Positions 2,959-24,328 of a stretch of DNA of 41,775 nucleotides are shown piece after piece (position 1 is the first letter of the stretch; each line of letters opens with the position of its first letter). The position numbers and the translations under genes were made by a program. The stretch comes from a virus. Below the pieces are notes generated by a model. The model did no database searches. It was not told the DNA's origin and saw nothing but the letters and a program-made list of their open reading frames with translations. Where the stretch lies: the IMG/VR virus record IMGVR_UViG_3300033149_005173, positions 1 through 41,775 of that record. One strand, given 5' to 3'.

Positions 2959-3897
2959 TTAGGTTTGCCTGATTTTTCTGGTGGCTATGATGGGGTTGCC
3001 TTTGCAGAAAACGAGGACATTTTGATGTATCTTTACTAATTTTCGGGACTTGCGGAATTGTTTCGGGGCGCGGATAGGGGCTGTGCCGGCAGGGGTAATC
3101 AGGATTGCGTCATTGTAAAAACCGGCGCTTGTTGCTGTAAAGGCGCTGATTGTTTCAGCTACAAGGGGCCTGTAGAAACCCGTAGCGGGGTCGCGGAAAT
3201 TAGCCACCACGATAACGGCAAAGCTGTGCTGTTTTAGCTTGTCTATTGCCTTGGCGATAATCCGGCGATACGCCGCGACGAATTGGGGCCAATCCATGTT
3301 GCTTAAATCATGCGGGTTGCTGCTGTATCTTTCCAAATTGCCGTAAGGGGGGCAGGTAAAAATCAGGTCTGCGGCCGGCGCATTGGCTAATTCGGTTGTG
3401 CTGTCGCCGCATACCCAAACAGGCGATTGTGGGGTCTTTATATCTGTTGCTTGCTGTCTGTTCGCCGCTACCTGTTCTGCCCGTAATTCGCAACCCCAGT
3501 ACCGGTACCCCATTGCGGCGGCAACAATGCCACGCACACTGCCGCCGGCGAAGGGGTCAACCACTTGGCCGCCAGGCGGACAGAACCATTTATACACTAT
3601 TTCGCAAAGGACCGGATCGAAGACGCTAATGCCAACACTGGTTCGTTGCGTGATAAAACCCCCACCCTTTGCGGTGTTGTACACGTTTGTATCCCGCCCT
3701 ATTTCGCCCCTAATCCCCAACGACAGCCATGCGCGTTTTCGCTGTCGCCACCACCCGCTGCGACCATCAAATACCGTAAACGGCGGCGCAGTGAAGTCCT
3801 TGCCCAGCGGCCCTGTAGCATGCGGCGGTTCCATTATACCGCCGAAAAGGTCCCTTTCGCCAATAGGATTTGTATAGCTTTTGCTGTGGTTGTTCAT
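2959..3897 (-). CDS. DNA methyltransferase, DPFAGG/CPPY type
   Basis: Amino-group DNA methyltransferase (N6-adenine or N4-cytosine). The S-adenosylmethionine motif DPFAGGSVRG (about residue 114) precedes the catalytic CPPYGNLERYSSN (about residue 184), and the C-terminus has QNVLVFCKG. The start is uncertain: MNNHSKSYTN at 3897 begins right after the stop of the previous gene, but no Shine-Dalgarno site is visible. The frame is open to 4017 with Met codons at 3948 and 4017, also without ribosome sites. A GGCAACGTTGCC palindrome abuts the chosen start. It probably protects phage DNA from restriction or marks it; target unknown. It is the last gene before the genome-end region. Confidence 0.82.
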   Translation of the reverse strand: MNNHSKSYTNPIGERDLFGGIMEPPHATGPLGKDFTAPPFTVFDGRSGWWRQRKRAWLSLGIRGEIGRDTNVYNTAKGGGFITQRTSVGISVFDPVLCEIVYKWFCPPGGQVVDPFAGGSVRGIVAAAMGYRYWGCELRAEQVAANRQQATDIKTPQSPVWVCGDSTTELANAPAADLIFTCPPYGNLERYSSNPHDLSNMDWPQFVAAYRRIIAKAIDKLKQHSFAVIVVANFRDPATGFYRPLVAETISAFTATSAGFYNDAILITPAGTAPIRAPKQFRKSRKLVKIHQNVLVFCKGNPIIATRKIRQT

Positions 3898-3910
3898 GGC
3901 AACGTTGCCA
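3897..3910. repeat. GGCAACGTTGCC palindrome copy 2
   Basis: TGGCAACGTTGCCA is a perfect 14-bp palindrome that ends exactly at the candidate start codon of the methyltransferase at 2959-3897. If transcribed it could fold over the start site, where no ribosome site is visible. Confidence 0.8.
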
Positions 3911-3919
3911 GTAGGATGT

Positions 3920-4180
3920 TCAGAGGTTTTTTGTGAGTCTTTTGACATGTTGTTTGACGGTTGTTTGGGCGTCGGCGAGGGTTGGGGTGAGGCCGAGGAT
4001 GTCTTCGTAGGCGGCATCTGGGATTTGGAAGATGATGTGGTACTGCCAATGTGCCCACGAAGGCTTTTTCAGCCTGTTGTCGTTGATGATGGTTATCTTG
4101 GTGAACCCTTCCGGCAATTGTCGCGGCTGGTAGATGATGTCGTCGCCTTCGGCGATCCGCTTCCATGACAGTTTCTGCAT
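3920..4180 (-). CDS. Hypothetical protein, 86 aa
   Basis: It starts at ATG 4180 behind AAAGGAAAGTAAG, two bases after the metallopeptidase-like gene. The small protein has an N-terminal beta-rich part (DDIIYQPRQLPEGFTKITII) and a C-terminal helix (TVKQHVKRLTKNL). No family is recognised. The spacing and identical ribosome site suggest co-translation with the upstream gene, and it sits between that gene and a methyltransferase in the accessory cassette. Confidence 0.65.
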   Translation of the reverse strand: MQKLSWKRIAEGDDIIYQPRQLPEGFTKITIINDNRLKKPSWAHWQYHIIFQIPDAAYEDILGLTPTLADAQTTVKQHVKRLTKNL

Positions 4181-4181
4181 C

Positions 4182-4652
4182 TTACTTTCCTTTTTCCTTA
4201 CTGCGTCTATCAGCCAAGGCTTGGGCGATAGCTTCTATCGCTTGCTCCAACAATATGTTTTCGGTACTTCCCTTAGGCCACTTGTCCAGCAGAGCAAAAT
4301 GCAGATGCAGTAGTTCGTGTACGATGATGGCATCGTATTTGGTGTACTTCCTACTCGATGGTACAACATCGGCAGGCGGCCTGATATCAATACGAGCCAT
4401 CTTGTGGTTCAAGTCCCAGTGAATCTCTGCTCTGTTGGCGATGTTCATTTCGTAGAAACGGTTTATATCAAAATCCACCTCCCAATCCTGTAATCGCAGA
4501 ACCCTTTGCCAATACCTGATACGTTCCCGAATCCATTCGTAGAGCTGCGGTACCTCCAGCCTGCTCAAATCCGATATGCGCTTATTGGATTTTTTCGCTA
4601 CTTGTCTTTTCGCCATACGTGCTCGTCCGGTGGAAAGTTGTTCTTCATCCAT
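4182..4652 (-). CDS. Zinc metallopeptidase-like protein (HELLH)
   Basis: The motif VHELLH (His112, Glu113, His116) with downstream glutamates in LLEQAIEAIAQAL (about 135-140) is the arrangement of HExxH zinc peptidases with a third ligand on a later helix. I associate this layout with a small phage family of unknown substrate. The N-terminal 25 residues are basic; a helix and beta region about 40-95 precede the motif. It starts at ATG 4652 with AAAGGAAAGTAA, overlapping the stop of the previous gene. A role in processing a host or phage protein is inference; catalysis is untested. Confidence 0.65.
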   Translation of the reverse strand: MDEEQLSTGRARMAKRQVAKKSNKRISDLSRLEVPQLYEWIRERIRYWQRVLRLQDWEVDFDINRFYEMNIANRAEIHWDLNHKMARIDIRPPADVVPSSRKYTKYDAIIVHELLHLHFALLDKWPKGSTENILLEQAIEAIAQALADRRSKEKGK

Positions 4653-4886
4653 TTACTTTCCTTTCATCCTTCTCGCTACCGCCCTTGCTTCCTTTAGCGC
4701 CTGGGCCAGCGTAGGGGCATATTCGAGGGCTACAAAACTATACCCGTCGTCTTCCCATTTCCACAGTTCCCACTGCCACGGCCCATGCGCCAGCTTGACG
4801 AATACAACCGTGCAGTTGTTGCGCAAGTCAACCACCTTCACCCACTTGCCCCGCCGTCGGTAATATTCCGCCCTTCTTTCCGGCAT
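4653..4886 (-). CDS. Hypothetical protein, 77 aa
   Basis: ATG 4886 follows GGAGGGTGCAGGG. The product has a Trp-rich centre (GPWQWELWKWEDDGYSF) and ends in a basic helix (ALKEARAVARRMKGK). The pattern of strands followed by a helix resembles small phage proteins of unknown role. It overlaps the start region of the metallopeptidase-like gene, so the two are probably translated together. Confidence 0.6.
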   Translation of the reverse strand: MPERRAEYYRRRGKWVKVVDLRNNCTVVFVKLAHGPWQWELWKWEDDGYSFVALEYAPTLAQALKEARAVARRMKGK

Positions 4887-4904
4887 CCCTGCACCCTCCT
4901 TCCT

Positions 4905-5138
4905 TCACCCCACCCTGCTTTCAAACCACCTTTCCGCCGCCGCCTCCGCTTCGCGGCTTTCAATCCATCCCTTGATTACCAGCACCGGCCCCCACACCGG
5001 CAACGTTGCCAGCGACAGCACGGCCATAATGGCGCAGAAGCCGGCCATCACCACCCCCTTGACCGCAGTGATTGCGCCGACAATCGCCGCAACCACCATC
5101 GTAAAGGGAAACAGCAGCACCGTCCACGGACTGTCCAT
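4905..5138 (-). CDS. Small membrane protein, 77 aa
   Basis: ATG 5138 lies behind GGAGGACAAAGAT. Hydrophobic segments at about residues 5-28 and 32-60 (Val/Ala/Gly-rich, with a short polar break at TAVKG) indicate one to three membrane passes. They are followed by a charged C-terminal tail (ESREAEAAAERWF). It could be a second holin-like or host-envelope protein, but no family is recognised. The palindrome at 4999-5010 lies in its coding sequence and encodes part of LATLPV. Confidence 0.6.
   Translation of the reverse strand: MDSPWTVLLFPFTMVVAAIVGAITAVKGVVMAGFCAIMAVLSLATLPVWGPVLVIKGWIESREAEAAAERWFESRVG
4999..5010. repeat. GGCAACGTTGCC palindrome copy 3
   Basis: This exact 12-bp palindrome lies inside the coding sequence of the membrane protein at 4905-5138. 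It is read in a different frame from copy 2, so it is conserved as DNA rather than as a shared peptide. Confidence 0.8.
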
Positions 5139-5666: not shown

Positions 5667-6512
5667 TTAGCAAGGGATTTCCGTTTGGATGTTGCTGCAT
5701 CGTTTCTCTATCAGCTTACCGTAGCCTTCGTTTAGTTCTATGCCTATGGCATTTCTTCCAAGTCTGATGGCCACGGCCAGCGTTGTCCCGCTGCCTGCGA
5801 ACGGGTCAAGTACCGTACCACCGATAGGGCAACCGGCCAAAATGCACGGCTCAATGAGTTTAGGCGGGAAGGTTGCAAAATGTGCACCAGGATATGGGCA
5901 CGTTGCCACAAACCACACGTCGCGCTTGTTGCGCATAATGTATGTTTTACCCCTCGGTATATTGTGAAACCCTCGCGTTTGTGCGTGCGCCGCATCTAAA
6001 GACAATATTAATTGGGGTTTACGACCACGAAACCCTTCAATGGATTCCTTGGCGATAGATGGCTCCCGTATTGCGTCGGCATCGTAATAATACTTGGCCG
6101 ATTTCGCCAACAAAAAGATATACTCGTGCGACTTGGTGGGTCTATCTTTCACGCTTTCCGGCATCGGATTGGGCTTTGCCCAGATGATGTCGCTGCGCAA
6201 ATACCAGCCATCGGCCTGCAGGGCAAAGGCCAATCGCCACGGCTGGCCGACCAGCTGTTTGCCCTGGTAGCAGTCGCCCATGTTCAGCCATAAGGTGCCG
6301 TCTTTACGCAGGACGCGGCGAACCTCGCGGAATACTCTCACGAGCTTATCGATGTATTCTTCAAGCGAGGGTTCTAATCCGATTTGCCCTTCAACCCCGT
6401 AATCTCGCAGCCCCCAATAAGGTGGTGATGTAATGACGCAATGAACGCTTTCTGATGGCAGCTGCTTTAGCTGTTCAAGTGCATCGCCGAAAATGATGCG
6501 GTAAGGCTTCAT
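5667..6512 (-). CDS. DNA methyltransferase, TSPPYWGLRDY type
   Basis: The catalytic motif TSPPYWGLRDYG (residues 28-39) precedes the S-adenosylmethionine motif DPFAGSGTTLAVA (about residue 232). This is the beta-class order of N4-cytosine/N6-adenine methyltransferases. At 281 aa it is normal for the family and lacks an obvious extra recognition domain beyond the central region. The order of motifs is opposite to that in the second methyltransferase at 2959-3897, so the two are not recent duplicates. A weak sigma70-like promoter lies upstream (6523-6550). It likely protects phage DNA against host restriction; no partner endonuclease is visible. Confidence 0.9.
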   Translation of the reverse strand: MKPYRIIFGDALEQLKQLPSESVHCVITSPPYWGLRDYGVEGQIGLEPSLEEYIDKLVRVFREVRRVLRKDGTLWLNMGDCYQGKQLVGQPWRLAFALQADGWYLRSDIIWAKPNPMPESVKDRPTKSHEYIFLLAKSAKYYYDADAIREPSIAKESIEGFRGRKPQLILSLDAAHAQTRGFHNIPRGKTYIMRNKRDVWFVATCPYPGAHFATFPPKLIEPCILAGCPIGGTVLDPFAGSGTTLAVAIRLGRNAIGIELNEGYGKLIEKRCSNIQTEIPC

Positions 6513-11800: not shown

Positions 11801-12936
11801 ATGACGTTGTAATACGGAAAATCCTCCGCCGTCGCCTCCTTGATGTAATCCGGGATTTCCACCGACCCGATTTTCTCGAAATACCGCACCATTCTGTAGA
11901 ACTTGACTTCGGGGTCCGGCCTCGGCACCACATGCAGCTTCTTTCCTTCCTGGCGATACTTTTCCTTCAGTTGTTTAAGCAGCCTGTAGTTTTCGTCGCC
12001 GCCGAAGGCCGGGTCAAACAGCGGACTGATTCGGGCGTTATCAACGGGGTTTTCCAGAAGGTCGGTTATTTGCTTCTTGCTTACGTTCAGGATTTCGTTG
12101 ATGGAAAGGTCCATGTCCTTAAGTGGGTCAACGTTCGGAAGTTCCTTAACGTCGCGGACAAGTTTAGTGTTCTTGAACTCCTCCAAAGCAGCCCTGATTT
12201 GCTGCATCCTTCTGGCGTTCGGGATGGCATCCCTGATTCTGCCTACGCCCCAGCCGAGGACGTAGGTCCCTGCGAACAGGGCCGCGGTGGCGGCCATGCC
12301 GGCAAGGTCATCGGCAGCGCCTGGTTCGTCCGATGCTGGTGTCATACCGGCCCTGATTTTGTGTGACAGTTCATAGGATGCGGCACCGACCACGGCGGCC
12401 CTGACGGCCTTGGCTGCAGTCGATGTTGCCCTGGCCAGTGATGCTACGCCGGCGGTAGCGGCAAGGGAAACCAGGAAGACGGGGTCGAGCAGGTCAAGGC
12501 CCATGCCGGCGATTTTCTGCATGGAACTGCCACGGGCCATGACGCTTATGTCGTCAACATACTGCCGGCCCTGGTCAAGCAGGATTTGAAAGTCGGTTTC
12601 GTTGACGGCATCGTCGAACTGCCCGCGGTTGTATAGCCACCATACTATGGGGTCTTGGTCCAGGCCGGGATTGCTGCGGATGTACTTGCCTGGGTCGAAG
12701 TTGGGGGCTGGTTCACCGCCGTAAATCCACCGTGCTACAGGATCGCCCAACGTCCCTACGGTCTGATGCGTCTTGGCGTAGATGTATTCCTTCCATGACG
12801 CCGTTTGCGGCTGGTACGCCCCCGATTCTACGGCTTCAATGGGCGGACCGTTGGTAATGAGGTCATCGTAATATGACCTTAACAGTTCCGCCGGATGCGG
12901 TCTTGTGAATATCTGTTTCGATACTACTACGGCCAT
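8890..12936 (-). CDS. Internal virion protein (T7 gp16-like), 1348 aa
   Basis: Size (T7 gp16 is 1318 aa) and position between gp15-like and terminase genes identify it as the large ejection protein that forms the trans-envelope DNA channel. Hydrophobic, Ala/Gly-rich stretches occur about residues 150-185 and 205-235. Long charged helical regions occur about 480-610. I do not see the N-terminal lytic transglycosylase motif of T7 gp16. The first 9 bases overlap the end of the gp15-like gene. Without alignment the domain limits remain approximate. Confidence 0.85.
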   Translation of the reverse strand: MAVVVSKQIFTRPHPAELLRSYYDDLITNGPPIEAVESGAYQPQTASWKEYIYAKTHQTVGTLGDPVARWIYGGEPAPNFDPGKYIRSNPGLDQDPIVWWLYNRGQFDDAVNETDFQILLDQGRQYVDDISVMARGSSMQKIAGMGLDLLDPVFLVSLAATAGVASLARATSTAAKAVRAAVVGAASYELSHKIRAGMTPASDEPGAADDLAGMAATAALFAGTYVLGWGVGRIRDAIPNARRMQQIRAALEEFKNTKLVRDVKELPNVDPLKDMDLSINEILNVSKKQITDLLENPVDNARISPLFDPAFGGDENYRLLKQLKEKYRQEGKKLHVVPRPDPEVKFYRMVRYFEKIGSVEIPDYIKEATAEDFPYYNVIDKLFVNTATLINKPAGMAMVSRVKNLPLRRLREALATVADSLRPITVDSARNPFEATHGPTVEGIFDHQRLIAGDVQARLKKVAKGYKRWLRRADRAQEFAGVRLQSWKDLLEAAGNWLRLKEAELKGYDVTAPTPIPEPITAILDELRAYMNKQLLNMESAGLMKIGPRALKEIKGKIKYQQRKLRELKKLYERRGQSPPAEAVEEIEKELAHLARRKAAVEKELTRMTYYSTQIYDVNKVLPNRTDFTDDLVIAMREGHVVEGKPIIEDAVRKVDSATIANELARITGGPVDDMTHDEMVKFIVDNLTEAELSPKFLATYEKAKETVWTQIAEQTYDLITGIPQGAGKRSGIYMPAMVPDPLQLRLMQANPARMAKWMINDPMKIVNYYMRATAPRYAVSRAIQLNPQIWEKARLTNGTKIRTLEDLFTYVDEGTEAFYRFAQFHDEHMAKRGVKFKPLLPVAKKMQYMVERDFKRVVEDMLGVRTMAASKYAGYQYMAAFGRSILYMNYANKLGCVALTQINDFAPMSLFALMRPQTLRLLIKAIRSLDKVTKRDLELIGLLKDHLIRTRRLIDVPVDEPIDGRLMMGFERGIRTLADWGSRINLMNLVTDIAKRGSAIYGIDMLTNISRKMVRAVELVEKEGMTLEAALRRVGLRGGKKSYWLAKVNKMGLNYKRAKLYHNLIYKYGLTMDDRPIREVMTFEEYMASSKPVKPNFEAWPLVRKDVKDLFDTIAINITSFVNHEMVVTPGAFDRPAFMITMPVLGRLLNQFQTFSMAFVNQRLNVMAQMPAHYQLWYAASYTFLGAMTDAIQAALSGRRSFTETAKAWEEQPLQMLYVAWERAGLLGWYPRIIRTLGTVAPPFARLMQGTSSFVHYASPDLPISMIGPFGSDLNRTYKVIRDVLNGKMSKWTALNFAKLLPGQNLLWLRLLHTTAGLPTVPEAITEAPVYSTPVLLNNWGSRRKGW

Positions 12937-15509
12937 AGCACATTTACATCCACTACGTTAGCTGGTGCTTCAGGCGGTGTGATTTGTGTGCCCGTTCTGG
13001 CTAGCACGCTGCCGTGTTCCCGCAGTATTCTCTGCTTTTCTTCTTCCGTGGGCAGCTGCCCCAGTGGCAGTTCCAGCGGCAGATTTTCCCTGGCCCGCCG
13101 CAAATCTTCTTCCTCCGGTATGAAGACCGGCATGTTGCCGTTTTCATCAACCCATAGCGTTCCGTTTTCGGTTACGTATGCGAACCCTGAAAGAACCCTC
13201 TTATCCGCAGTTTCCTTCGCAAGCACTTGGGCGGTTTCCCTTGCTTCTTCTTCGTTGAAAGGCAGCCCCCTTGCCCTTGCATCGTCTTTCAATCGCTGGA
13301 AGTAATACTGTTGCAGTTGTTCCAACGTCGGCTTGTAGGCCACCAGCTTTAGCCCGATGATGCCTTCCTTTTCGGCGTTCTTCCCGACAATCTTTTCAAA
13401 CTGTGATATTGCTGTGTTCTGCAGCCAGTAAGGCTCTCTTGTGATGATGCTGTAGATTTCGTTTGCATGCGGATAATCAGGCGTATTGATATTGCCCTTT
13501 ATCCTGACCGGCACCACCGTCTTGTCGCCGTCTTTGGTCTTCCACGGGACGAACAGGAATTTGTGTTCCAGCATGGCAGTGGTGTATTCTATGGCCTTGT
13601 TGACGGCTGTTTTTTCATCGACCCCGGCATTTATCAGGATGCGGATTCGGTTGCCGTAGATTTTCATTGCCGTATCGTACAAATCCGCTGTTGCGCGGAA
13701 AGTGGGGTCGCGGGTAAACAAGCCGCTGCCGAAGATGGGGCCGTATTTGTCCTTCAGCTTGTCCCTTATTTCATCCAGTACGAAAGCTTTTGCATCGTCT
13801 TCCGTCTTGAAGGGTGTGCCCGATCCGACGGCTGTGATGCCGGTTATGTCTATACCCTCAATGAATTGCATACTGCGCAGCTGTTCTATCAGCTGCTGCA
13901 TCTTTGTGTCATTCTGCAGCGTACCGTCATCCCTTGCCAGGAAGATGGCTTGCAGGATTGTGCCGTCCTTGCCTGATGCGCTATCCAAGGCGCGGATTTC
14001 AAGGGCTGGTTGTGCTTTGGTTATCGTTGCCAGCAGCCTTGCCGATTGCAGGGCTTCGCTGGGTGTGCCGTACTTGATGTTGTTCAAGTGATAGGCTAGG
14101 CGGTTCCGCGGTATGATACCGGTACTGGTCAATACTATCGCTTCGATGTCGGAAGGGATTTCACCCGTCTGCGGGTCGGCGTATCTTTTCAAGTGGTTCT
14201 CTACAAGCGTTCTGTTGGACGCAGTGTCCGGCAGGACCCGTGGCGGTGCCTTGCCGCTTATCATGTCGCTTATCTGTTTTTCCGCGACGTTGGCTTCGAC
14301 TTGCTTGCCGACCGCACCGACGATGTATCGGTACTGTTCAACGGTAATGCCCATACCGTTGTCGGGGTTTTCGAAGTCGTATGCCTTCAGCAGGTCGGTT
14401 GCTGTCTTGATTGCCCTTTCCCCTGAAAGGGTGCCTTCGTAGTACCGCTGTAAGATAGCCCGTACCCGCAAGGCCCTCACCCTGTCCGATGCAACCCGCT
14501 GCAGATATTTCGCATCTTCTTGCACTTCGGGGTTCTTGGACAAGTGTTTCTGCAGTTCGACAACCGTGTTCAGGTCCCCTTCCCCGGCCGCATCCCGCAT
14601 CTTGTTGATGACGTGGCTGTCGATGATGCTGGTTGCTTCAGCTTTAGTCAGTATCTTGTCTTCGACGTGTTGCTGGACGATTTGCTTGATTGTTTCCACC
14701 GGCGCGTTTTCTTGCTGCCGTTGTGCAAGATCGTCCAGAACTATTTTGAGCTGCTTGGCGATTTGCTGTTGTTGCCTGATAACAGCACGATGTTCCAGTG
14801 CAGCGAAATCGGCGATGAACTTGCCGTTGGCGGCTTCTTTAATTATGTGCAGCAGTTCGATGTTGCCGCTTTCGGCTGCGGCTTCCGCTGCGGTAAGCAA
14901 TGTTCGTCGCATGACTTCAAGCGGCGACAGCCACGGTAGTGCCTTACGGGCTTCATCGACCACAGCGATTATGTCTTCCGGCGTCTTTGCTGTCTGTACG
15001 GATGATGAATATGTCTGCAGCAGTTCTGCGGCCTGTTCCTGTCGCAGTTGTTCCCGCTGCCTGATGAAGGCTGGCGTAAGCGTAGCCGTCATCGACGTAA
15101 CGAAGGTCTGCGCCATAGGCCCCGGCATGCCGTCGGCATATTCCATTGCCAGCTGCTTGGCGTAGTCCGCTGCCGACATGCCTTCAGGCACAAGCAGTTG
15201 CTTCTCTTGGATTTTCTCAAGCAAAGAAGGCGCCAGTTCGCGGTACCGTTGGAATCCCGCCCCGCGGTAAAGGTTCTGCATCCGCTGGGCATGGTATTCC
15301 AGGGACTGCGAAATCCTGGCCGCGCCTTGTGCTGCTGCGCCCAGCGCCGCTTGCAACTGCGCGAGCTTGGTAGCCGGGACTGATACGGGTGGAATGGGTA
15401 CAACGCCGGGCGCAGTCAGCTCATAGTTTATCCCCTGCCTGGGCAATCGCCTTGTCCTGGTTCTTGCGTATCCCGTTAATGGCTTGCTGTATTCCAGTTG
15501 CACTGCCAT
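12927..15509 (-). CDS. Internal virion protein (T7 gp15-like), 860 aa
   Basis: The gene follows the gp14-like gene and precedes the gp16-like gene, the T7 order; T7 gp15 is 747 aa. The product is largely helical, rich in Gln/Ala/Lys, with coiled-coil-like segments about residues 60-260 and 580-760. There is no signal peptide or membrane segment. It starts at ATG 15509 behind AGGGAAACTGAAAT. It is expected to be ejected with the DNA into the host envelope. The assignment rests on order and size; no catalytic motif is visible. Confidence 0.85.
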   Translation of the reverse strand: MAVQLEYSKPLTGYARTRTRRLPRQGINYELTAPGVVPIPPVSVPATKLAQLQAALGAAAQGAARISQSLEYHAQRMQNLYRGAGFQRYRELAPSLLEKIQEKQLLVPEGMSAADYAKQLAMEYADGMPGPMAQTFVTSMTATLTPAFIRQREQLRQEQAAELLQTYSSSVQTAKTPEDIIAVVDEARKALPWLSPLEVMRRTLLTAAEAAAESGNIELLHIIKEAANGKFIADFAALEHRAVIRQQQQIAKQLKIVLDDLAQRQQENAPVETIKQIVQQHVEDKILTKAEATSIIDSHVINKMRDAAGEGDLNTVVELQKHLSKNPEVQEDAKYLQRVASDRVRALRVRAILQRYYEGTLSGERAIKTATDLLKAYDFENPDNGMGITVEQYRYIVGAVGKQVEANVAEKQISDMISGKAPPRVLPDTASNRTLVENHLKRYADPQTGEIPSDIEAIVLTSTGIIPRNRLAYHLNNIKYGTPSEALQSARLLATITKAQPALEIRALDSASGKDGTILQAIFLARDDGTLQNDTKMQQLIEQLRSMQFIEGIDITGITAVGSGTPFKTEDDAKAFVLDEIRDKLKDKYGPIFGSGLFTRDPTFRATADLYDTAMKIYGNRIRILINAGVDEKTAVNKAIEYTTAMLEHKFLFVPWKTKDGDKTVVPVRIKGNINTPDYPHANEIYSIITREPYWLQNTAISQFEKIVGKNAEKEGIIGLKLVAYKPTLEQLQQYYFQRLKDDARARGLPFNEEEARETAQVLAKETADKRVLSGFAYVTENGTLWVDENGNMPVFIPEEEDLRRARENLPLELPLGQLPTEEEKQRILREHGSVLARTGTQITPPEAPANVVDVNVLWP

Positions 15510-15521
15510 ATTTCAGTTTCC

Positions 15522-16046
15522 CTAAACGTTTGTGCGTCCTGACAGTTGCTGCATGGTTTGCATGCGCTTTATTGCCAGGCCGGTGTTAACTAGTTGCGGT
15601 GCGTATGCTGCAAACGATTCAAATGCTGCCAGGCCGGGCGATATTGTCCGCCCTTGCAGCCTTGCCATGTTTGCCTGTGCCGCTGTTCTGGCGTACTGAA
15701 CCTGGTTCAGGTAATTCTGTTGGATGATTTTTTCATTCAGTGCCGTTTCGTAGAGTGTTTGGCGGATAAGGGCATCGTAGCTGCCTGCTATACCGACCCC
15801 GGCTTCGCCTGCAGCGACGCGCAGGCGGCCGATTATCTGTTGTGCCCTTGCAATGTTCCGCATCTTTTCCAATCCCGCTTGTTCTGCAAGTTGTTTCTGC
15901 TGAATCCGCAAGGCCTCCGCCTGCGACTTCATGGATGCTTCAATCGCCTCGTTCTGTGCCTTGGCTGCAGCGTAGGATGCGTAGGTAGCCCCTGCTGTTG
16001 CCGCTATTTCGGTTATCACCAATGCCGGTATCACTGCTTCAGCCAT
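15522..16046 (-). CDS. Internal virion protein (T7 gp14-like), 174 aa
   Basis: ATG 16046 was chosen because it lies at the stop of the upstream gene behind GGGTGGTTAAG. The protein has an N-terminal hydrophobic Ala/Gly segment (VITEIAATAGATYASYAAAKA) followed by Gln/Ala-rich helices, the pattern of T7 gp14 (196 aa), which inserts into the outer membrane during ejection. The motif RVAAGEAGVGIAGSYDALIRQ near residue 80 and QANMARLQGR near 130 are typical of this family. It is the first of the three ejection genes. Confidence 0.88.
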   Translation of the reverse strand: MAEAVIPALVITEIAATAGATYASYAAAKAQNEAIEASMKSQAEALRIQQKQLAEQAGLEKMRNIARAQQIIGRLRVAAGEAGVGIAGSYDALIRQTLYETALNEKIIQQNYLNQVQYARTAAQANMARLQGRTISPGLAAFESFAAYAPQLVNTGLAIKRMQTMQQLSGRTNV

Positions 16047-16047
16047 C

Positions 16048-16656
16048 TTAACCACCCCTTGGGATGTAATCGGCTATTATTTCCACCGCTGATATTGTAA
16101 ACGGCGCAGGGCCGTCGTCCGTAACTGCCAGCGTCTGCTTATCTGACTTGCCTTGGAACCATGCCTTGAAAAAACCTTCGCGTTCGGTAAGTGCCCGCCA
16201 GGGTGTAAAGGTTGCCGTCCTTATCCCGCTGTTGCTGTTCCACGGTCTGTTGCGCATCGTCGATTGCAGCTTGTAGCTGCCGCTGTTTCTGTGTGCAGTT
16301 GTCAGCTGCCTTACCAGCAGGAAGGCGTCTATGTCGGCGTTGTTGTTGACATCCCTGAAGTACGGCCTGGAAAACGTACATGTGGCTGTGAACTTCCTGC
16401 CGATAATCACCTCGCCCGCCGTAAGGTCCTGGTCGTTGACCCTCACAATCCCGTCTTGCACGCTGTCGGGTGTAATGACCTTGCCGGCGTAGTTGTCGTC
16501 GGGATTGTCCGGATCGTAGCTGCCGAAATCGGGGCCGAGGACGATGGCGTTCAGCGTAGTGTCGGCAGTTGGAACGTAGAAGATGGTGTCGTTGCCATCA
16601 AGTTCACCTTGGCATTTCATCATTCTGTCAAGATGTACGATGTACGGCCATGCCAT
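16048..16656 (-). CDS. Tail nozzle C-terminal domain as a separate protein (T7 gp12 C-part)
   Basis: This 202-aa protein starts with WPYIVHLDRM, then a beta-rich region. It then has VIIGRKFTATCTFSRPYFRD (about 90-110), LLVRQLTTAHRNSGSYKL and a final PFTISAVEIIADYI. These match the layout of the C-terminal third of T7 gp12-like tail nozzle proteins (VG..Y..RF.FSR, LQLR...VNY.DSGAY, ..IESAEWEG), including the LDR stretch that normally follows the propeller domain. It lacks the N-terminal two thirds, which are in the gene at 16658-19825. ATG 16656 begins 1 nt after that gene's TAA, in another frame, with AAGG as ribosome site, so the two parts are coupled and probably assemble together. Confidence 0.8.
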   Translation of the reverse strand: MAWPYIVHLDRMMKCQGELDGNDTIFYVPTADTTLNAIVLGPDFGSYDPDNPDDNYAGKVITPDSVQDGIVRVNDQDLTAGEVIIGRKFTATCTFSRPYFRDVNNNADIDAFLLVRQLTTAHRNSGSYKLQSTMRNRPWNSNSGIRTATFTPWRALTEREGFFKAWFQGKSDKQTLAVTDDGPAPFTISAVEIIADYIPRGG

Positions 16657-16657
16657 C

Positions 16658-19600
16658 TTACCTTATCCCCTTTGCTGCCGCGCCGCTTCTGCCCGGCGCC
16701 GGCAATTCCGTCATTGACGACCATGCACCTAATGAAAGTTTTGCTGCATCCTGGTAGTAGGTTGTCGCATCGTGCCCGCCGTAGATGTAGATGTTGCCGT
16801 TCATGTAGGCGGCCGCGATGTCCTGTCGTGCATTGCCGGGTATGTTGCTGACCGATACCCACGAATCGGTTGACGGGTGATAGTATTTCGACGTTTTGAC
16901 GTACTCGCCGCTGTCGTCGTCATAGCCGCCGAAGAAGTAGAATCGCGTGTGTAGTATGGCGCAGCCCGGCTGAACCCAGCTGAACGGCATGGATGAACTT
17001 TGTGTGGACCAGCTGTCGCTGGAAATCTGATACTTGTAAACGTACTTGTAAACGCCGCATGCCATGTAGAAGTTGCCGTAGTAATCGGCCATAGCCTTCA
17101 GTCCGCCGCCGCGTGCCGTTTCCGGCATTTCGTGTAATAGAATCCAGCTTGTTTCATCTGACTTGGCGGCGGCCTTCTGCGGTGCCAATCCGTTGTAGCC
17201 GCCGAAGGTGTAAACGTATGACGGCCGGAAACCCCCGTAGCCGTTGTAATTCAAATAATCGCCACTCAAATCCGGCAGCGCTGTCCACGAATCCGTTGAA
17301 TCGTATTTATCGCAGTTCGGCACCGCGCCGCTGGCATTGCCGCCAAGGATGTAGATGCTGTTGGCAGCGCCTGCCGTCTGCGGCAATGACCTTGCATCAT
17401 GGCTGCCCCGTGTCGGTATAGCGGTTTTTGTGGACCAGCTGTCTGTGGCGACGTTGTGTTGGTCGTTGTCTTTGAGATAGGTTGAAGGGGCGGATGCCCC
17501 GCCGATGACGTTTATCAAGCCGGTAAAGACCGTGCTTTTCGTCCATGTCGTCGGGAAGCTGTCGGTTTCGTAATCATCCCGCGGACTGATGGGGTCGTCG
17601 TAGTTGAGGTTGTCAATCGTTTCGATGTTAAACCCGTCGGTGGTTTCGACAAGCATGTAAAGACTGGTCGAAATCATCGTGGCATCGGCGATACGGTAGC
17701 TGTCGTCGAAAACATAGGTGGTCCATGCCGACTGGTCCTTGTTAAGGCCCGACCAGTGGAAGCGGTACATGAAGATTCTGTTGCCGTCTTTCGGGATGAC
17801 GAAAACACAGTTGTCATTTGCGGATACTGCTATCGACCGTATTTCCGCCGGCAGCAGATGCGGCGTATGACTGGTCGTATCCGCCGCTTCATTTGCCACG
17901 CGGGAATCGTTGTAGAAGTATTCGTACAGTGCCGTTGTTCCGCTTTTCAGGCCGATGAAGTAGAGCAGGTTGCCGATGGTGCGGGGCTTAACCGACAGCG
18001 ACTTGTAGGTGGTTGATGGTTCTATTGCCGCCGTTTCTGCGGTAAGGTTATCCGGCGTATTCAGCTCGAACTGGCTTCCCGCCTTCGTGAAGATTATCAG
18101 CGTCTTGCGGAAAGGTACGATGTAGTCGATGATGGTTACTTCGTGCGATGTAAGCGTCAGGTCTATGGGGTCCGAATCGACAACGTTGTTGGCATTGTCA
18201 AGATAGAAGTTGAACAAGTCGCCTGCTTGACTGAATACGATGTATTCATCACCGGCCAGGACAAGGCGGTTGCGATGCAGGGTAATGTCCGAAATGGTAA
18301 CTTGATTTTCCCAGATGGATGGGATGGGATTGTTGTTTTCATCCCCGCTTGCCCTGGCAGACCAGTCTATGGTGGACAGAGTGAACTGTGCCGGCGTATC
18401 ACCGCTGCGCACCGCCGTCCTTACCAGCTTTATCGGCATGGTGGTTTCATCTATCATGGCGTTCGGCTGGTTGGGCGGTGCGGTGGATGTCCAGCGGTCC
18501 TCCGGTGCCAAAGTCAGCGTTGTAGGCGTGCCCGTGCCTTTATGCGATGTGGCGTTACCCCAGTAGAATGGGCGGTTTTTTTTAGTGTAATCATAGCCGC
18601 TGGACGGGGCTTCGGTACCGAAGATTTCCGCAGTTTCCCCGCGATATGAACACGTAATGACGAAATGCCCTTTTGCCGTACCTTCGCCTGTGTCCACCCA
18701 GCTTACAAGTGCATCAAAGGCGCCGTTGGCCCGCAAGGCATCCTGGAACTCCTTGGCAACGTCATCCATATCCGTAAAGGCGCCCGGTTCAACGTCGATG
18801 ATTGCCTCAAAGCTGTTCTTGATTCTTGCCTTTTCCGGCAGTGGCGAACCGGTGGCACCTATTTCAACGTCATTGACATCGCTTGTGGCAATGCTGGTTT
18901 CAAGGACGATGGCATCATCGCTTTCTTTATATGCGATGGTGTACCAATCTGGTGTAATACCGCCACTTCCGCCTGCCACCCAGATTTGATCGCCGACTTG
19001 CCAGTCGTAGTCGGCGAAGGCGCCGGTTTTGGTAAGCTTCTTATCAGCGGCGGTCCATGAAACGTTGGTTTCGTGGATGTTGTTCCTGCCCCAGGTTATC
19101 TTGAATCCGCCTGGGTTCATATCATCGTTGTCGTAGTAACCTGACGCTCTTGCCCATGCCCCTTTTACGGTGCCGAACACAACGTGGGCGAAGGTAGCCT
19201 TGTTTGCCGGCGTGGATTGGTCGGGGTCAGGGTCGTAGTAGTAATACTCTTCCGCCGTGGCATCTGTGGATTCTACCCTATGCCTTTCGCCAACGCCGTT
19301 GGTGAGGTCCCACATCCCTTTTTGTGTTGAACCGTCCCCGGAAGGCGTATAACTGATAAGGGCATCGTAATCGTTGTGGGTCCCGTCAACGGTGTAGTCC
19401 GGTGATGCCTTGCCCTTGGCTTGAACTTTTCGGTTAAGGATGATGGTGTAATCTTCGATGGTGATTAGTTGCAGGTCGTCCGCCGTGGCATTTTCGGCAT
19501 TGATGTAGTCGATGGCATCTTGGCTTGCTGTAACATCACATTCCAGGCCGTCGGTGTGGAAGACGCGGATTACGCCTTCGCCGTAAACGACGAAGTATTT

Positions 19601-19825
19601 TTCATCCTGGTCGCGTTCGATGGAATAGAGGCGATAGTCGCCATCATTTAAAAGGTCGTCAACCTTACAGATGAAGACGGTTCCCGGTCGCTTGGATGCG
19701 CCTTCTGCAACGTCGAACAGGATGTTGACGGCATCTTCCACTTGGTGTGGAAACCGCAGATGCGCAGGCTGCTGGGATATACCCCCGTAAAGTGCCGGTA
19801 TTGCTATCCGTACTTCTTCTGCCAT
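16658..19825 (-). CDS. Tail nozzle protein (T7 gp12-like) N-part fused to a Kelch propeller
   Basis: 1055 aa against 794 for T7 gp12. Residues 1 to about 745 show the gp12 signature: a start with a GGISQQP motif and KRPGT, then the VTISDITLHRNRLVLAG region, VDYIVPF-type strands and ending LYMLVETTDGFNIETIDN. Residues about 765-1055 are six Kelch-type repeats of about 48 aa. Each has a hydrophobic strand plus GG (VIGG, ILGG, TFGG, MACG, FFGG, IYGG) and a downstream TDSW-type tryptophan. The conserved gp12 C-terminus is in the next gene. The nozzle closes the tail tube and contacts the cell surface; an added propeller could bind a receptor or fibre. It starts at ATG 19825 overlapping the gp11-like gene. 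Confidence 0.88.
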   Translation of the reverse strand: MAEEVRIAIPALYGGISQQPAHLRFPHQVEDAVNILFDVAEGASKRPGTVFICKVDDLLNDGDYRLYSIERDQDEKYFVVYGEGVIRVFHTDGLECDVTASQDAIDYINAENATADDLQLITIEDYTIILNRKVQAKGKASPDYTVDGTHNDYDALISYTPSGDGSTQKGMWDLTNGVGERHRVESTDATAEEYYYYDPDPDQSTPANKATFAHVVFGTVKGAWARASGYYDNDDMNPGGFKITWGRNNIHETNVSWTAADKKLTKTGAFADYDWQVGDQIWVAGGSGGITPDWYTIAYKESDDAIVLETSIATSDVNDVEIGATGSPLPEKARIKNSFEAIIDVEPGAFTDMDDVAKEFQDALRANGAFDALVSWVDTGEGTAKGHFVITCSYRGETAEIFGTEAPSSGYDYTKKNRPFYWGNATSHKGTGTPTTLTLAPEDRWTSTAPPNQPNAMIDETTMPIKLVRTAVRSGDTPAQFTLSTIDWSARASGDENNNPIPSIWENQVTISDITLHRNRLVLAGDEYIVFSQAGDLFNFYLDNANNVVDSDPIDLTLTSHEVTIIDYIVPFRKTLIIFTKAGSQFELNTPDNLTAETAAIEPSTTYKSLSVKPRTIGNLLYFIGLKSGTTALYEYFYNDSRVANEAADTTSHTPHLLPAEIRSIAVSANDNCVFVIPKDGNRIFMYRFHWSGLNKDQSAWTTYVFDDSYRIADATMISTSLYMLVETTDGFNIETIDNLNYDDPISPRDDYETDSFPTTWTKSTVFTGLINVIGGASAPSTYLKDNDQHNVATDSWSTKTAIPTRGSHDARSLPQTAGAANSIYILGGNASGAVPNCDKYDSTDSWTALPDLSGDYLNYNGYGGFRPSYVYTFGGYNGLAPQKAAAKSDETSWILLHEMPETARGGGLKAMADYYGNFYMACGVYKYVYKYQISSDSWSTQSSSMPFSWVQPGCAILHTRFYFFGGYDDDSGEYVKTSKYYHPSTDSWVSVSNIPGNARQDIAAAYMNGNIYIYGGHDATTYYQDAAKLSLGAWSSMTELPAPGRSGAAAKGIR

Positions 19826-19826
19826 C

Positions 19827-20405
19827 TTAATCCTGTGCCAAGATTCTCATCGCATCATACGTATCGAACACGTTGGCCCGCCGCAGGTCGGTATCTTCCT
19901 GCCTTGCAGCGATGCGGGCCTGGTACATTTCCTGTTGCAGGATGTTATCATCCACCAAGCCGCGCTTCTTGTTCCGTTGGAACTTCACTGCCGCTGCCTT
20001 GGCGATGTAGTAGGCCAGAAGCGGCGGCAGGACTTCAAAATCAAGGTTCTGAACAACGTCAAGCTCTATTTCATCTTCATCGAACTCGTCAGTATCGTTT
20101 TCAATGTCGTACACGTAGCCATTGCGCAGAACCAGTTTCATGTAAATGGACTTCCCAGCCGGGGTGATGGAAAGGATGCCGGGATCTTCAGACGACAGGT
20201 CTATCTTGTTGTTGGCATCCGGCTGGTATGCCTTTTCTTCCACGGTGTTGCAGAACCAGCCTTCGGCAAGGATTTTTTCGCACGTGCTTTCCAGCAGCAC
20301 TTTTGCTTCGTATTCTTCGCTGCCGTCGTCGGAATCCGGCAATGATGCTACAGGCGGTTCACCTATAGCTGCCAGCATTTCGTTAACTGCTTCCAGCTTC
20401 GTCAT
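19827..20405 (-). CDS. Tail tubular protein A (T7 gp11-like), 192 aa
   Basis: This is the adaptor ring between portal and nozzle. The opening MTKLEAVNEMLAAIGEPPV and SLPDSDDGSEEYEAKVLL are characteristic, as are LLAYYIAKAAAVKFQRNK (about 140) and the closing Arg-rich helix DTDLRRANVFDTYDAMRIL. Length agrees with T7 gp11 (196 aa). ATG 20405 (behind TTGAGG) is preferred to a TTG 15 bases upstream. The start lies inside the end of the preceding gene and the stop adjoins the nozzle gene. Confidence 0.93.
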   Translation of the reverse strand: MTKLEAVNEMLAAIGEPPVASLPDSDDGSEEYEAKVLLESTCEKILAEGWFCNTVEEKAYQPDANNKIDLSSEDPGILSITPAGKSIYMKLVLRNGYVYDIENDTDEFDEDEIELDVVQNLDFEVLPPLLAYYIAKAAAVKFQRNKKRGLVDDNILQQEMYQARIAARQEDTDLRRANVFDTYDAMRILAQD

Positions 20406-21015
20406 TGTTATTGTCCTCAAGCAACCTTTCCACCTGGTATCCGTTCTTCGCCCTTTCGGCGACCGCGTTCTTGTCCGTCAGGAACTTCACTATGCTGGTC
20501 CGGTCTGCCGGCGGTAAGGCAATTATCATTTCGTAGCTTGCCGGCGACAGTCTGCCTGCCGTTGCCAAGTCTATAATGGCAAGCAATTTGGCGCGTTCGA
20601 CCCACATTTCCCTTTCCAGTTCATGCCGTCGCGTGTCGTCAATGTCGCCCAGCCTTTCCTTTAGGGCAACGGCTTGGGTATAGAAGCGGTCAAGTTCGCG
20701 TCTTGTGGTATGGATGGATGTAAGAATATCTTCCAGCTCAAGCTTCTTTAGTTGTATTTCCAAATCCCTGCGTCTTTGCTTTATCGGGCAGCCGTCGCTT
20801 TGCTGTTGTAACTGGTCTATGTCCAGTTCTATCATCTGTCGCTTGATTTCCAGCCGCTTCAAGGCCTTATGCCTGGCAACCAGCTCGCGTAACGCCTGCC
20901 GGTACATGCCGTAAGTGGTCGGGCCGCCTTTGCCGGTAATGAAGTAATCCATCTGAAAATCGGAATGACCGTGCAAATGGTCGGCCAGCAACTTGTCTAT
21001 GATTCCATCGGCCAT
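20383..21015 (-). CDS. Coiled-coil structural protein, 210 aa
   Basis: I chose ATG 21015 (MADGIIDKLLADHLHG), which lies within the end of the previous gene behind AAAGGGAAAAGGC. Residues about 50-150 form a long charged helix with heptad-like Leu/Ile spacing (LKRLEIKRQMIELDIDQL, ELEREMWVERAKLLAII). The C-terminus is acidic. No family is recognised. Its place directly before gp11 suggests a tail or head-tail role; in other T7-like phages small virion proteins occupy similar sites. Confidence 0.65.
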   Translation of the reverse strand: MADGIIDKLLADHLHGHSDFQMDYFITGKGGPTTYGMYRQALRELVARHKALKRLEIKRQMIELDIDQLQQQSDGCPIKQRRRDLEIQLKKLELEDILTSIHTTRRELDRFYTQAVALKERLGDIDDTRRHELEREMWVERAKLLAIIDLATAGRLSPASYEMIIALPPADRTSIVKFLTDKNAVAERAKNGYQVERLLEDNNNDEAGSS

Positions 21016-21546: not shown

Positions 21547-22413
21547 TCACCTCAAAATGCGAAACACCTTGTGCCCATCCGCGCCATCGCCACCGTCGCC
21601 ATTGCCGGCACCACCGCTTACATCCACTTTTGCCTTGTCGGCATCACTTAACGCGTAACTCGTCCATATCTCAACGTACCCACCACCACCGCCGCCGGTG
21701 TTGGTGCCTCGGCCGCCCTCACCCTTGGCTTCTATTTTTCCGCTGGCACCGAAGATTATGCGCGGGGCATATAAGATGATTATCCCGCCGCCGTTGCCGC
21801 CACGTGCGGAAGTGTTACCACCACCACCGCCGCCGGCGCAGTAACGAAACGGGCGGCCTGGGCCAATCCATTCGTCGCGGTCAAAATTGGAGTCGATGAT
21901 GTCGTTGCCATTTTGGGCTGGGCTGCCGCCTGTGGCCTTTTGGCTCGTGTAGCCCGCAGGGAAAAAGGCGTAATCAGTCTCACCCCGTGCGACGAAGGCA
22001 TCATTGCCGTCGGCCGACCCGCCACCGCCGACGACGGGCCAGATGGTGAAATCGTAAAGCATGTGGGTAACACCGGCGGAAATATGCAGCCCAGGTGGCA
22101 ATCCATCGCTCGCTGTTCCCACATCCCCAAAAACGCCGTTGTTGTTGATTTTCCGCGTTACCCCCGTCGCGCTCAGCGTCCCGTTGATTTCGATGAAATC
22201 CTGTGCGCGGATAACGCATATCGCACCCTTGTCATGCGCCCAGGCCGGCACGGACAAGGTTCGTCCTTGTAAGATGGTCAGCGACACGTAATTCAAATCT
22301 GTTTTCGTCAGCGTTTCGTTCGTGCCAACGGTCTTCGTTCCGTCGCTGCCGTCGCCGAACTGCCACGGCAAGTTGCGTCGGCCGATGGGCTTGTTTATTA
22401 CAGGGTAAGCCAT
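21547..22413 (-). CDS. Glycine-rich adhesin-like structural protein, 288 aa
   Basis: ATG 22413 (MAYPVINKPIGRRN) lies behind GAGGGTGAAGTG. The N-terminal half is beta-rich. The C-terminal half has repeated poly-Gly runs (CAGGGGGGNTSARGG, EGGRGTNTGGGGGG, GNGDGGDGADG) separated by short strands. Such runs are known from phage tip adhesins that pack polyglycine helices, for example the gp38 type of T-even phages. It may bind a host surface glycan or decorate the particle; which of the two cannot be told from sequence. Confidence 0.65.
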   Translation of the reverse strand: MAYPVINKPIGRRNLPWQFGDGSDGTKTVGTNETLTKTDLNYVSLTILQGRTLSVPAWAHDKGAICVIRAQDFIEINGTLSATGVTRKINNNGVFGDVGTASDGLPPGLHISAGVTHMLYDFTIWPVVGGGGSADGNDAFVARGETDYAFFPAGYTSQKATGGSPAQNGNDIIDSNFDRDEWIGPGRPFRYCAGGGGGGNTSARGGNGGGIIILYAPRIIFGASGKIEAKGEGGRGTNTGGGGGGYVEIWTSYALSDADKAKVDVSGGAGNGDGGDGADGHKVFRILR

Positions 22414-22428
22414 CACTTCACCCTCCTC

Positions 22429-23254: not shown

Positions 23255-23866
23255 TTATACGTTGGGTATGAGGGCGCCGGTGTCGATGCGGCGCCAGTTG
23301 GTGCCGTCACTGTAAGCTACACATGCACCGCTAGGTTCATCTGAAACCCAGATAAGCGACCCCGCAGGGCGCTGTTCTGATGGTATTGCGTTAGCTGCAG
23401 CTACGGTGTAGCTTTTTAGTATAAGGACGGTATTGTAGACAATATGGTTAACAATGCTAGTGCCTAATTGAACAGCGCCGTCAGCCGTCAAATTGCCATC
23501 AATATCGGCGTTCCCTTTAACGTATAGATCTCCATTTTCTATCTGGACACCACTGCTGCCAAAAAACTGGGCATTCTTTTCTGCCATCAAGTCATTGGCA
23601 AAGTAAATATGCCCATTCCCTTTGACAGCGAATCCCATCTCTGTAATGCTGGATTCGTCGTTCTTGCTGTAAATTGCGGTACCACGTCGGTCGCTTTGCC
23701 AGTGAGGGAACTCCGTGCTTCCAGCATTGTCTGCTTGGCCTGTGATTTCCAGGTAGTCGGTGGTGGTGTAATCGTCTTTGCCGCCACTTAACGATGTTGG
23801 TTCATATTCTTGTGCATCAGTAACACGCAGAATCTTCGTAGGCCCGTATTCCCGTGTCTCGCTCAT
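23255..23866 (-). CDS. Head-fibre/decoration-like protein B, 203 aa
   Basis: ATG 23866 (MSETREYGPTK) lies behind AAGGAGTGCTTGTG. The N-terminus (KILRVTDAQEYEP, TTDYLEITG) and the C-terminus (VAYSDGTNWRRID) both match those of the preceding gene at 23927-24328, so the two are paralogues. Between them is an inserted beta-rich segment of about 75 aa (DLYVKGNADIDGNLTADG). The AYSDGTNW ending recurs in phage structural proteins. Position after the capsid gene suggests fibres or knobs on the head. Confidence 0.65.
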   Translation of the reverse strand: MSETREYGPTKILRVTDAQEYEPTSLSGGKDDYTTTDYLEITGQADNAGSTEFPHWQSDRRGTAIYSKNDESSITEMGFAVKGNGHIYFANDLMAEKNAQFFGSSGVQIENGDLYVKGNADIDGNLTADGAVQLGTSIVNHIVYNTVLILKSYTVAAANAIPSEQRPAGSLIWVSDEPSGACVAYSDGTNWRRIDTGALIPNV

Positions 23867-23883
23867 CACAAGCACTCCTTATC

Positions 23884-23926: not shown

Positions 23927-24328
23927 TTAGGTCTTGGATATGTTGCCACCTGCACCATCAAGGCGCTTCCAATTGGTTCCGTCACTGTAAGCCAGTGTAG
24001 GATTTCCTGCAGCACCATCGGTTACAAGGATGACGTAGCCAGTGTAATTGGATGCACCGAGATCGCCTGCACCGTCAACATCCGTTTGAAGGAACTTAAC
24101 AAGCGTCCCGCCATCCCCTTTGCCGGCCAGCCGCAGCTGCACATCATCTTCGTTGTCGTTCTTGGCGGTAACAATGATGTGTGGCGTGGTGCTGCTGATG
24201 TTGCCTTCTATCTCAAGGTAGTCGGTTTCATCGTAATCCGGCCTGCCGGTATTTTCGGCAGGGGCAACGGTTTCGTTGTCCTTGACGCGCAGCAACTTGT
24301 TGCTGTCAACTGCAATAGTTTCAGCCAT
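23927..24328 (-). CDS. Head-fibre/decoration-like protein A, 133 aa
   Basis: ATG 24328 behind AAGGAGGAATGAATC, 14 bases after the capsid stop. It shares its N-terminal module (KLLRVKDNETVAP, ETDYLEIEG) and C-terminal module (LAYSDGTNWKRLD) with the next gene. It is a compact beta-rich acidic protein without membrane segment. Immediate proximity to the capsid gene suggests a capsid decoration or head-fibre protein made in high amount. Confidence 0.68.
   Translation of the reverse strand: MAETIAVDSNKLLRVKDNETVAPAENTGRPDYDETDYLEIEGNISSTTPHIIVTAKNDNEDDVQLRLAGKGDGGTLVKFLQTDVDGAGDLGASNYTGYVILVTDGAAGNPTLAYSDGTNWKRLDGAGGNISKT

Follow-up and report, generated by a model that had tools for sequence, protein, structure and literature searches.

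In T7, gp12, the nozzle for DNA ejection, is built around a seven-bladed propeller, with the nozzle tip inserted in blade 3. On the outer surface, the fibre dock joins the propeller's end to a platform composed of the C-terminal domain and strands from the N-terminal 45 residues, three of them in the barrel (PMC6702177). Among the parts of T7-like tails, the nozzle belongs to the conserved core; in the T7-like structures compared it is a single chain (794 aa in T7). A screen of titles and abstracts in the open-access literature found no described split nozzle and no described Kelch nozzle.

The DNA analysed here (the window, 41,775 bases) is the virus record IMGVR_UViG_3300033149_005173. It carries a 92-base terminal direct repeat with one mismatch and is therefore a near complete genome. 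Its minus strand encodes a T7-type RNA polymerase, portal, scaffold, capsid, adaptor, nozzle, internal virion proteins, and terminase. Capsid and terminase showed <60% identity to any phage record, which makes the virus divergent within the T7-like group. Two DNA methylase-like genes are also present (2959-4017(-) and 5667-6512(-)).

A nozzle encoded by two genes

Pfam profiles placed the nozzle genes between gp11 and gp14, as expected for a T7-type nozzle. The adaptor gene (tail tubular A, gp11-like; 19827..20420, minus strand; PF17212 1.4e-28, phrog_446 1.1e-40) encodes 197 aa, an ordinary length among the adaptors surveyed (183-252 aa for ordinary adaptors). The next gene downstream of the nozzle encodes a gp14-like internal virion protein (15522..16055, minus strand; PF24072 4.3e-12), which fixes the order gp11-gp12-gp14. 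Between the capsid and adaptor genes lie three genes for unassigned proteins (21547-22416(-), 23255-23875(-), and 23927-24328(-); in ascending order of length, 133, 206, and 289 aa), two of which have a common YSDGTNW-R ending and one of which is glycine-rich; these are possible candidates for other appendages.

Where a T7-type nozzle is a single polypeptide, the window contains two ORFs in different frames. The first (N-part, 16658-19825, minus strand, 1055 aa) matched the nozzle profiles PF25675 (9.6e-108) and phrog_457 (1.7e-102) at its N-terminus and over residues 440-757, reaching profile position 580-599. Residues 1-140 (19406..19825, minus strand) comprise the N-terminal strands and the start of the propeller (profile 7-137 at 1e-31) and were modeled with an AF2 pLDDT of about 90 across most of residues 50-140; by homology to T7, the N-terminal strands probably contribute to the platform. 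Residues 141-444 (18494..19405, minus strand) form a divergent, enlarged nozzle-tip region of ~300 aa that was unmatched by the nozzle profile and gave low AF2 confidence. The nozzle's own beta-propeller follows at residues 445-740 (17606..18493, minus strand; PF25675 289-580). Its pLDDT was mostly 72-94, the model being confident over residues 455-740 and falling in confidence after residue 740, and the best Foldseek matches of the propeller model were T7-like nozzles (3e-37).

The second ORF (C-part, 16048..16656, minus strand, 202 aa) matched phrog_457 591-790 (4.7e-15) and PF25675 643-790 (2.3e-9), the portion missing from the 1055-aa ORF, and thus represents the fibre dock and C-terminal platform as a separate protein. 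Its AlphaFold model (pLDDT 88.2) gave TM scores of 0.68-0.72 to the nozzles of T7, Kp7, Kp9, and P-SCSP1u, with Foldseek E values down to 4.8e-9. In alignments with intact nozzles the break fell after the last strand of the propeller and before the LDR segment, which, given the layout of T7 gp12, corresponds to the boundary of propeller and fibre dock. In comparison with T7 gp12 (PF25675, phrog_457; PDB 6r21, 7ey7), the N-terminal part, the propeller, the fibre-dock/platform C-part, and the position after gp11 are shared, whereas the window has two chains instead of one, a Kelch propeller in addition, and a larger tip region.

At the junction (16658..16673, minus strand), the stop codon TAA of the N-part (16660-16658) is followed by one base (16657) and then by the ATG of the C-part. 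The stop is preceded by AAAGGGG (16673-16667) and AAGG (16664-16661), which, judged by their sequence, are likely the ribosome-binding site for the C-part. An identical TAA-G-ATG junction was present in an independent sister strain (IMGVR_UViG_3300005098_000040), and the C-part differed between the two strains by synonymous changes only. These two observations rule out a frameshift or assembly error, and a chance or sequencing frameshift as the source of the split is excluded for practical purposes. Profile, fold, and second strain together establish the division of the nozzle into two genes that had been proposed in a first-pass annotation, including its assignment of the 202-aa protein, from the LDR segment onward, to the gp12 C-terminus as a separate, coupled gene in another frame.

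The Kelch domain at the end of the N-part

The N-part is extended at its C-terminus by residues 768-1055 (16661..17524, minus strand), in which six Kelch units are readable in the sequence. Pfam models for Kelch_1 (41.5 bits versus a curated cut-off of 20.1), Kelch_6 (34.9 versus 25.3), Kelch_2, and Kelch_4 all scored above their cut-offs, and a KLHDC2-type domain model scored just under its own (47.6 versus 50). A phmmer search of the PDB with residues 756-1055 alone retrieved a designed six-bladed Kelch propeller (6.7e-36) as well as KLHL17 and KLHL20 (~1e-18). These Pfam and PDB matches, together with the unit layout, establish the ~290 aa that end the N-part as the six-unit Kelch domain anticipated earlier, a predicted six-bladed propeller; the region, residues 765-1055 included, is not ordinary gp12 sequence. 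The domain resembles the six-bladed propellers of KLHL17 and KLHL20 in its six-unit repeat pattern and sequence, but it is fused to a phage nozzle, and its nearest solved relatives are eukaryotic or designed proteins. The AF2 pLDDT over the Kelch part was <50 in a run made without homologues for that stretch. As T7 gp12 already has a seven-bladed propeller, the Kelch domain would be a second propeller. It had initially been placed at the tail tip; the break that it adjoins lies instead at the junction of propeller and fibre dock on the outer flank of the tail. A tblastn search of phage records with the Kelch part yielded no match at 1e-3, and a scan of the collection with the whole 1055-aa protein returned the sister strain only.

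Selection was evaluated from a single pair, the window and its sister strain. Synonymous change was broadly similar throughout the nozzle, and amino acid changes numbered one in the N-terminus, 17 (plus two gap columns) in the tip, one in the propeller, 13 in the Kelch part, and none in the C-part. The tip region (18494-19405(-)) was thus the most strain-variable part of the nozzle. The difference between the Kelch part and the N-terminus, propeller, and C-part combined was significant (Fisher p 9e-5), and the pN/pS of the Kelch part was about 0.32. The Kelch domain is therefore less constrained than the conserved parts, yet still under constraint at the protein level. The higher rate of change could reflect relaxed constraint.

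Split and unsplit relatives

For comparison, 80 nozzle loci were collected from viral-contig scans, followed by eight closer ones (some on the same contigs) and nine from genome contigs. Ordinary nozzles were nearly all encoded by a single ORF with a median length near 785 aa, in a list to which pieces of the window itself contribute a few copies. At one locus (L033, 5097-7506) the nozzle appeared as two overlapping ORFs meeting at profile position about 135, which may be a frameshift error. In the tree, the window fell in a family of seven with strong support (100/100). The nozzle is split in the window, L015, and L107/L108, and unsplit in L016, L017, L086, and L109, L016 and L017 being cut at contig ends.

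The search for other phages with the same split also revealed a distant case, Podoviridae sp. ctgrD200 (L010; MW202733, Manatee Spring). The break lies just before the LDR segment in the window, L015, L107/L108, and ctgrD200, each with different added parts, which establishes it as a conserved break site. The IMG/VR relatives L015 and L107/L108 share with the window the family, the split site, and a C-part encoded as a coupled gene. They differ in their extensions: the N-part of L015 is extended by ~110 aa together with a Ser-rich linker, that of L107 by a tail of <100 aa, both without Kelch and unrelated to it. The earlier suggestion that insertion of the Kelch propeller may have created the split is not borne out, since L015 and L107 share the break site without having Kelch; the split is independent of that domain. 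Within the family, one common origin of the split was not rejected (AU p 0.20), and independent origins there are for this reason not claimed.

The nozzle pieces of ctgrD200 cover about 1-558 and 583-793. Its C-part starts at a GTG that immediately follows the stop before it, and the sequence APISLDRQV there marks the same break. As in the window, a nozzle split before LDR with a separate C-part gene occurs in a record without the fibre anchor PF03906; unlike in the window, two genes lie between the pieces, one for a pectate-lyase-like (tailspike-like) beta-helix and one for a 315-aa unassigned protein. In the tree it sits outside the family clade, although its branch is very long. The nozzle C-part and the 315-aa protein occupy one frame (12508-14031) with a single TAA between them, and the first 31 aa of the latter weakly resemble the last nozzle blade (profile 545-573, E about 0.1), which is suggestive only. 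Searches for relatives resembling this Manatee Spring phage found none, and a further scan with the C-part added no new members.

Other modules were observed on the nozzle or adaptor of family members. L016 carries a LamG-type domain inside its nozzle (2.6e-18). In L017 the adaptor (3322-4926) is 535 aa long, with an F5/8-C domain after the adaptor proper (8.3e-14), and in L015 it is extended to 568 aa (3047-4750) by about 365 aa ahead of the adaptor. The unsplit nozzle of L109 (6978-11189) reaches 1404 aa through a Cys-rich insertion of ~570 aa at profile position 514. Two tandem adaptor (gp11-like) genes were present in each of L086 (520-1793) and L109 (5636-6963).

The T7 gp17-type fibre anchor PF03906 was absent from the window genome, six family records, and the ctgrD200 record. 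Several of the family records are fragments, so that their share in this absence carries little weight. The domain was present in 4/4 ordinary relatives tested (BB8, PspYZU08, and a pair of viral contigs whose nozzles are ordinary). PF13884, the fibre chaperone domain, was absent from 8/8 records searched; these included two with T7-type fibre anchors, and its absence is accordingly uninformative.

Function of the split nozzle and its added module

The reading that we favor, with a probability of roughly 0.6, is that of a two-polypeptide nozzle bearing, at the C-terminus created by the break, a module that binds the host and takes over from docked fibres. The N-part would supply the N-terminal platform strands, the tip, and the gate propeller, and the separately translated C-part the remainder of the platform together with the fibre dock, both assembling into one nozzle subunit. 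Since three strands of the barrel in the C-terminal platform come from the first 45 residues of T7 gp12, the two chains would most likely rejoin non-covalently. Next to the fibre dock, on the outer flank, the break would leave a C-terminus free for the addition of modules, Kelch in the window and others in the relatives. The most likely role of such a module would be recognition of the host surface, with six copies held on the DNA gate replacing docked fibres. For the Kelch domain, which belongs to a class that frequently serves in binding, its position, domain type, and strain variability make receptor binding plausible. Across the relatives, the split nozzle is best read as a site onto which modules for host binding have repeatedly been grafted, substituting for docked fibres.

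In the alternative that fares best, the Kelch domain would be a docking collar that stands in for the fibre-dock contact and anchors a separate fibre or tailspike from a gene elsewhere, without itself binding the host. The Kelch domain does adjoin the fibre dock, the window has three unassigned genes (133, 206, and 289 aa) between those for capsid and adaptor, and in ctgrD200 the tailspike-like beta-helix gene lies between the nozzle pieces. We nevertheless consider a collar improbable, because the other split relatives have unrelated extensions at the site and because Kelch varies between strains while the dock in the C-part is identical, the opposite of what is expected for a conserved docking interface. 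A tail-carried enzyme, for example a glycan-modifying one like NanM or galactose oxidase, appears less probable still: the NANM profile gave a weak match to the Kelch part (1.2e-6, 28 bits, under the cut-off of 45), whereas the best matches were binding-type Kelch domains.

Programmed +1 frameshifting at AGG-TAA, which would join the ORFs and yield some fused nozzle besides the split one, might be considered as the C-part follows the stop directly in the +1 frame, AAGGGG precedes it somewhat as in prfB, and L107 shows a +1 relation as well. However, the junctions read TAA-G-ATG in the window, TGA-C-ATG in L107, an ATGA overlap in another frame in L015, and TAA-GTG in frame 0 in ctgrD200, and every C-part has its own start codon. 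With no conserved frame relation, translational coupling or reinitiation is likelier than a conserved frameshift, and we regard the latter as very unlikely. Least credible is a tolerated, non-functional extension on a neutral gene fission, for which a possible single origin in the family and the lower constraint on Kelch might be cited, given that a pN/pS of about 0.32 in an intact frame indicates selection for the protein, that different modules recur at one site, and that LamG and F5/8-C domains occur elsewhere on nozzle or adaptor.

The favored two-polypeptide nozzle with a host-binding module can be extended, tentatively and with less confidence than the reading itself, to the whole family: lacking the fibre anchor, its members might use split nozzle and adaptor as a plug-in platform for exchangeable binding domains on the DNA gate, and binding by Kelch might be mechanically coupled to gate opening with no fibre involved. 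That the break recurs with a module-bearing free end, in phages devoid of the T7 fibre anchor, suggests that host recognition on T7-like tails can be built in a second way. The break site indicates where the nozzle chain can naturally be interrupted, and a coupling of host binding to gate opening becomes testable.
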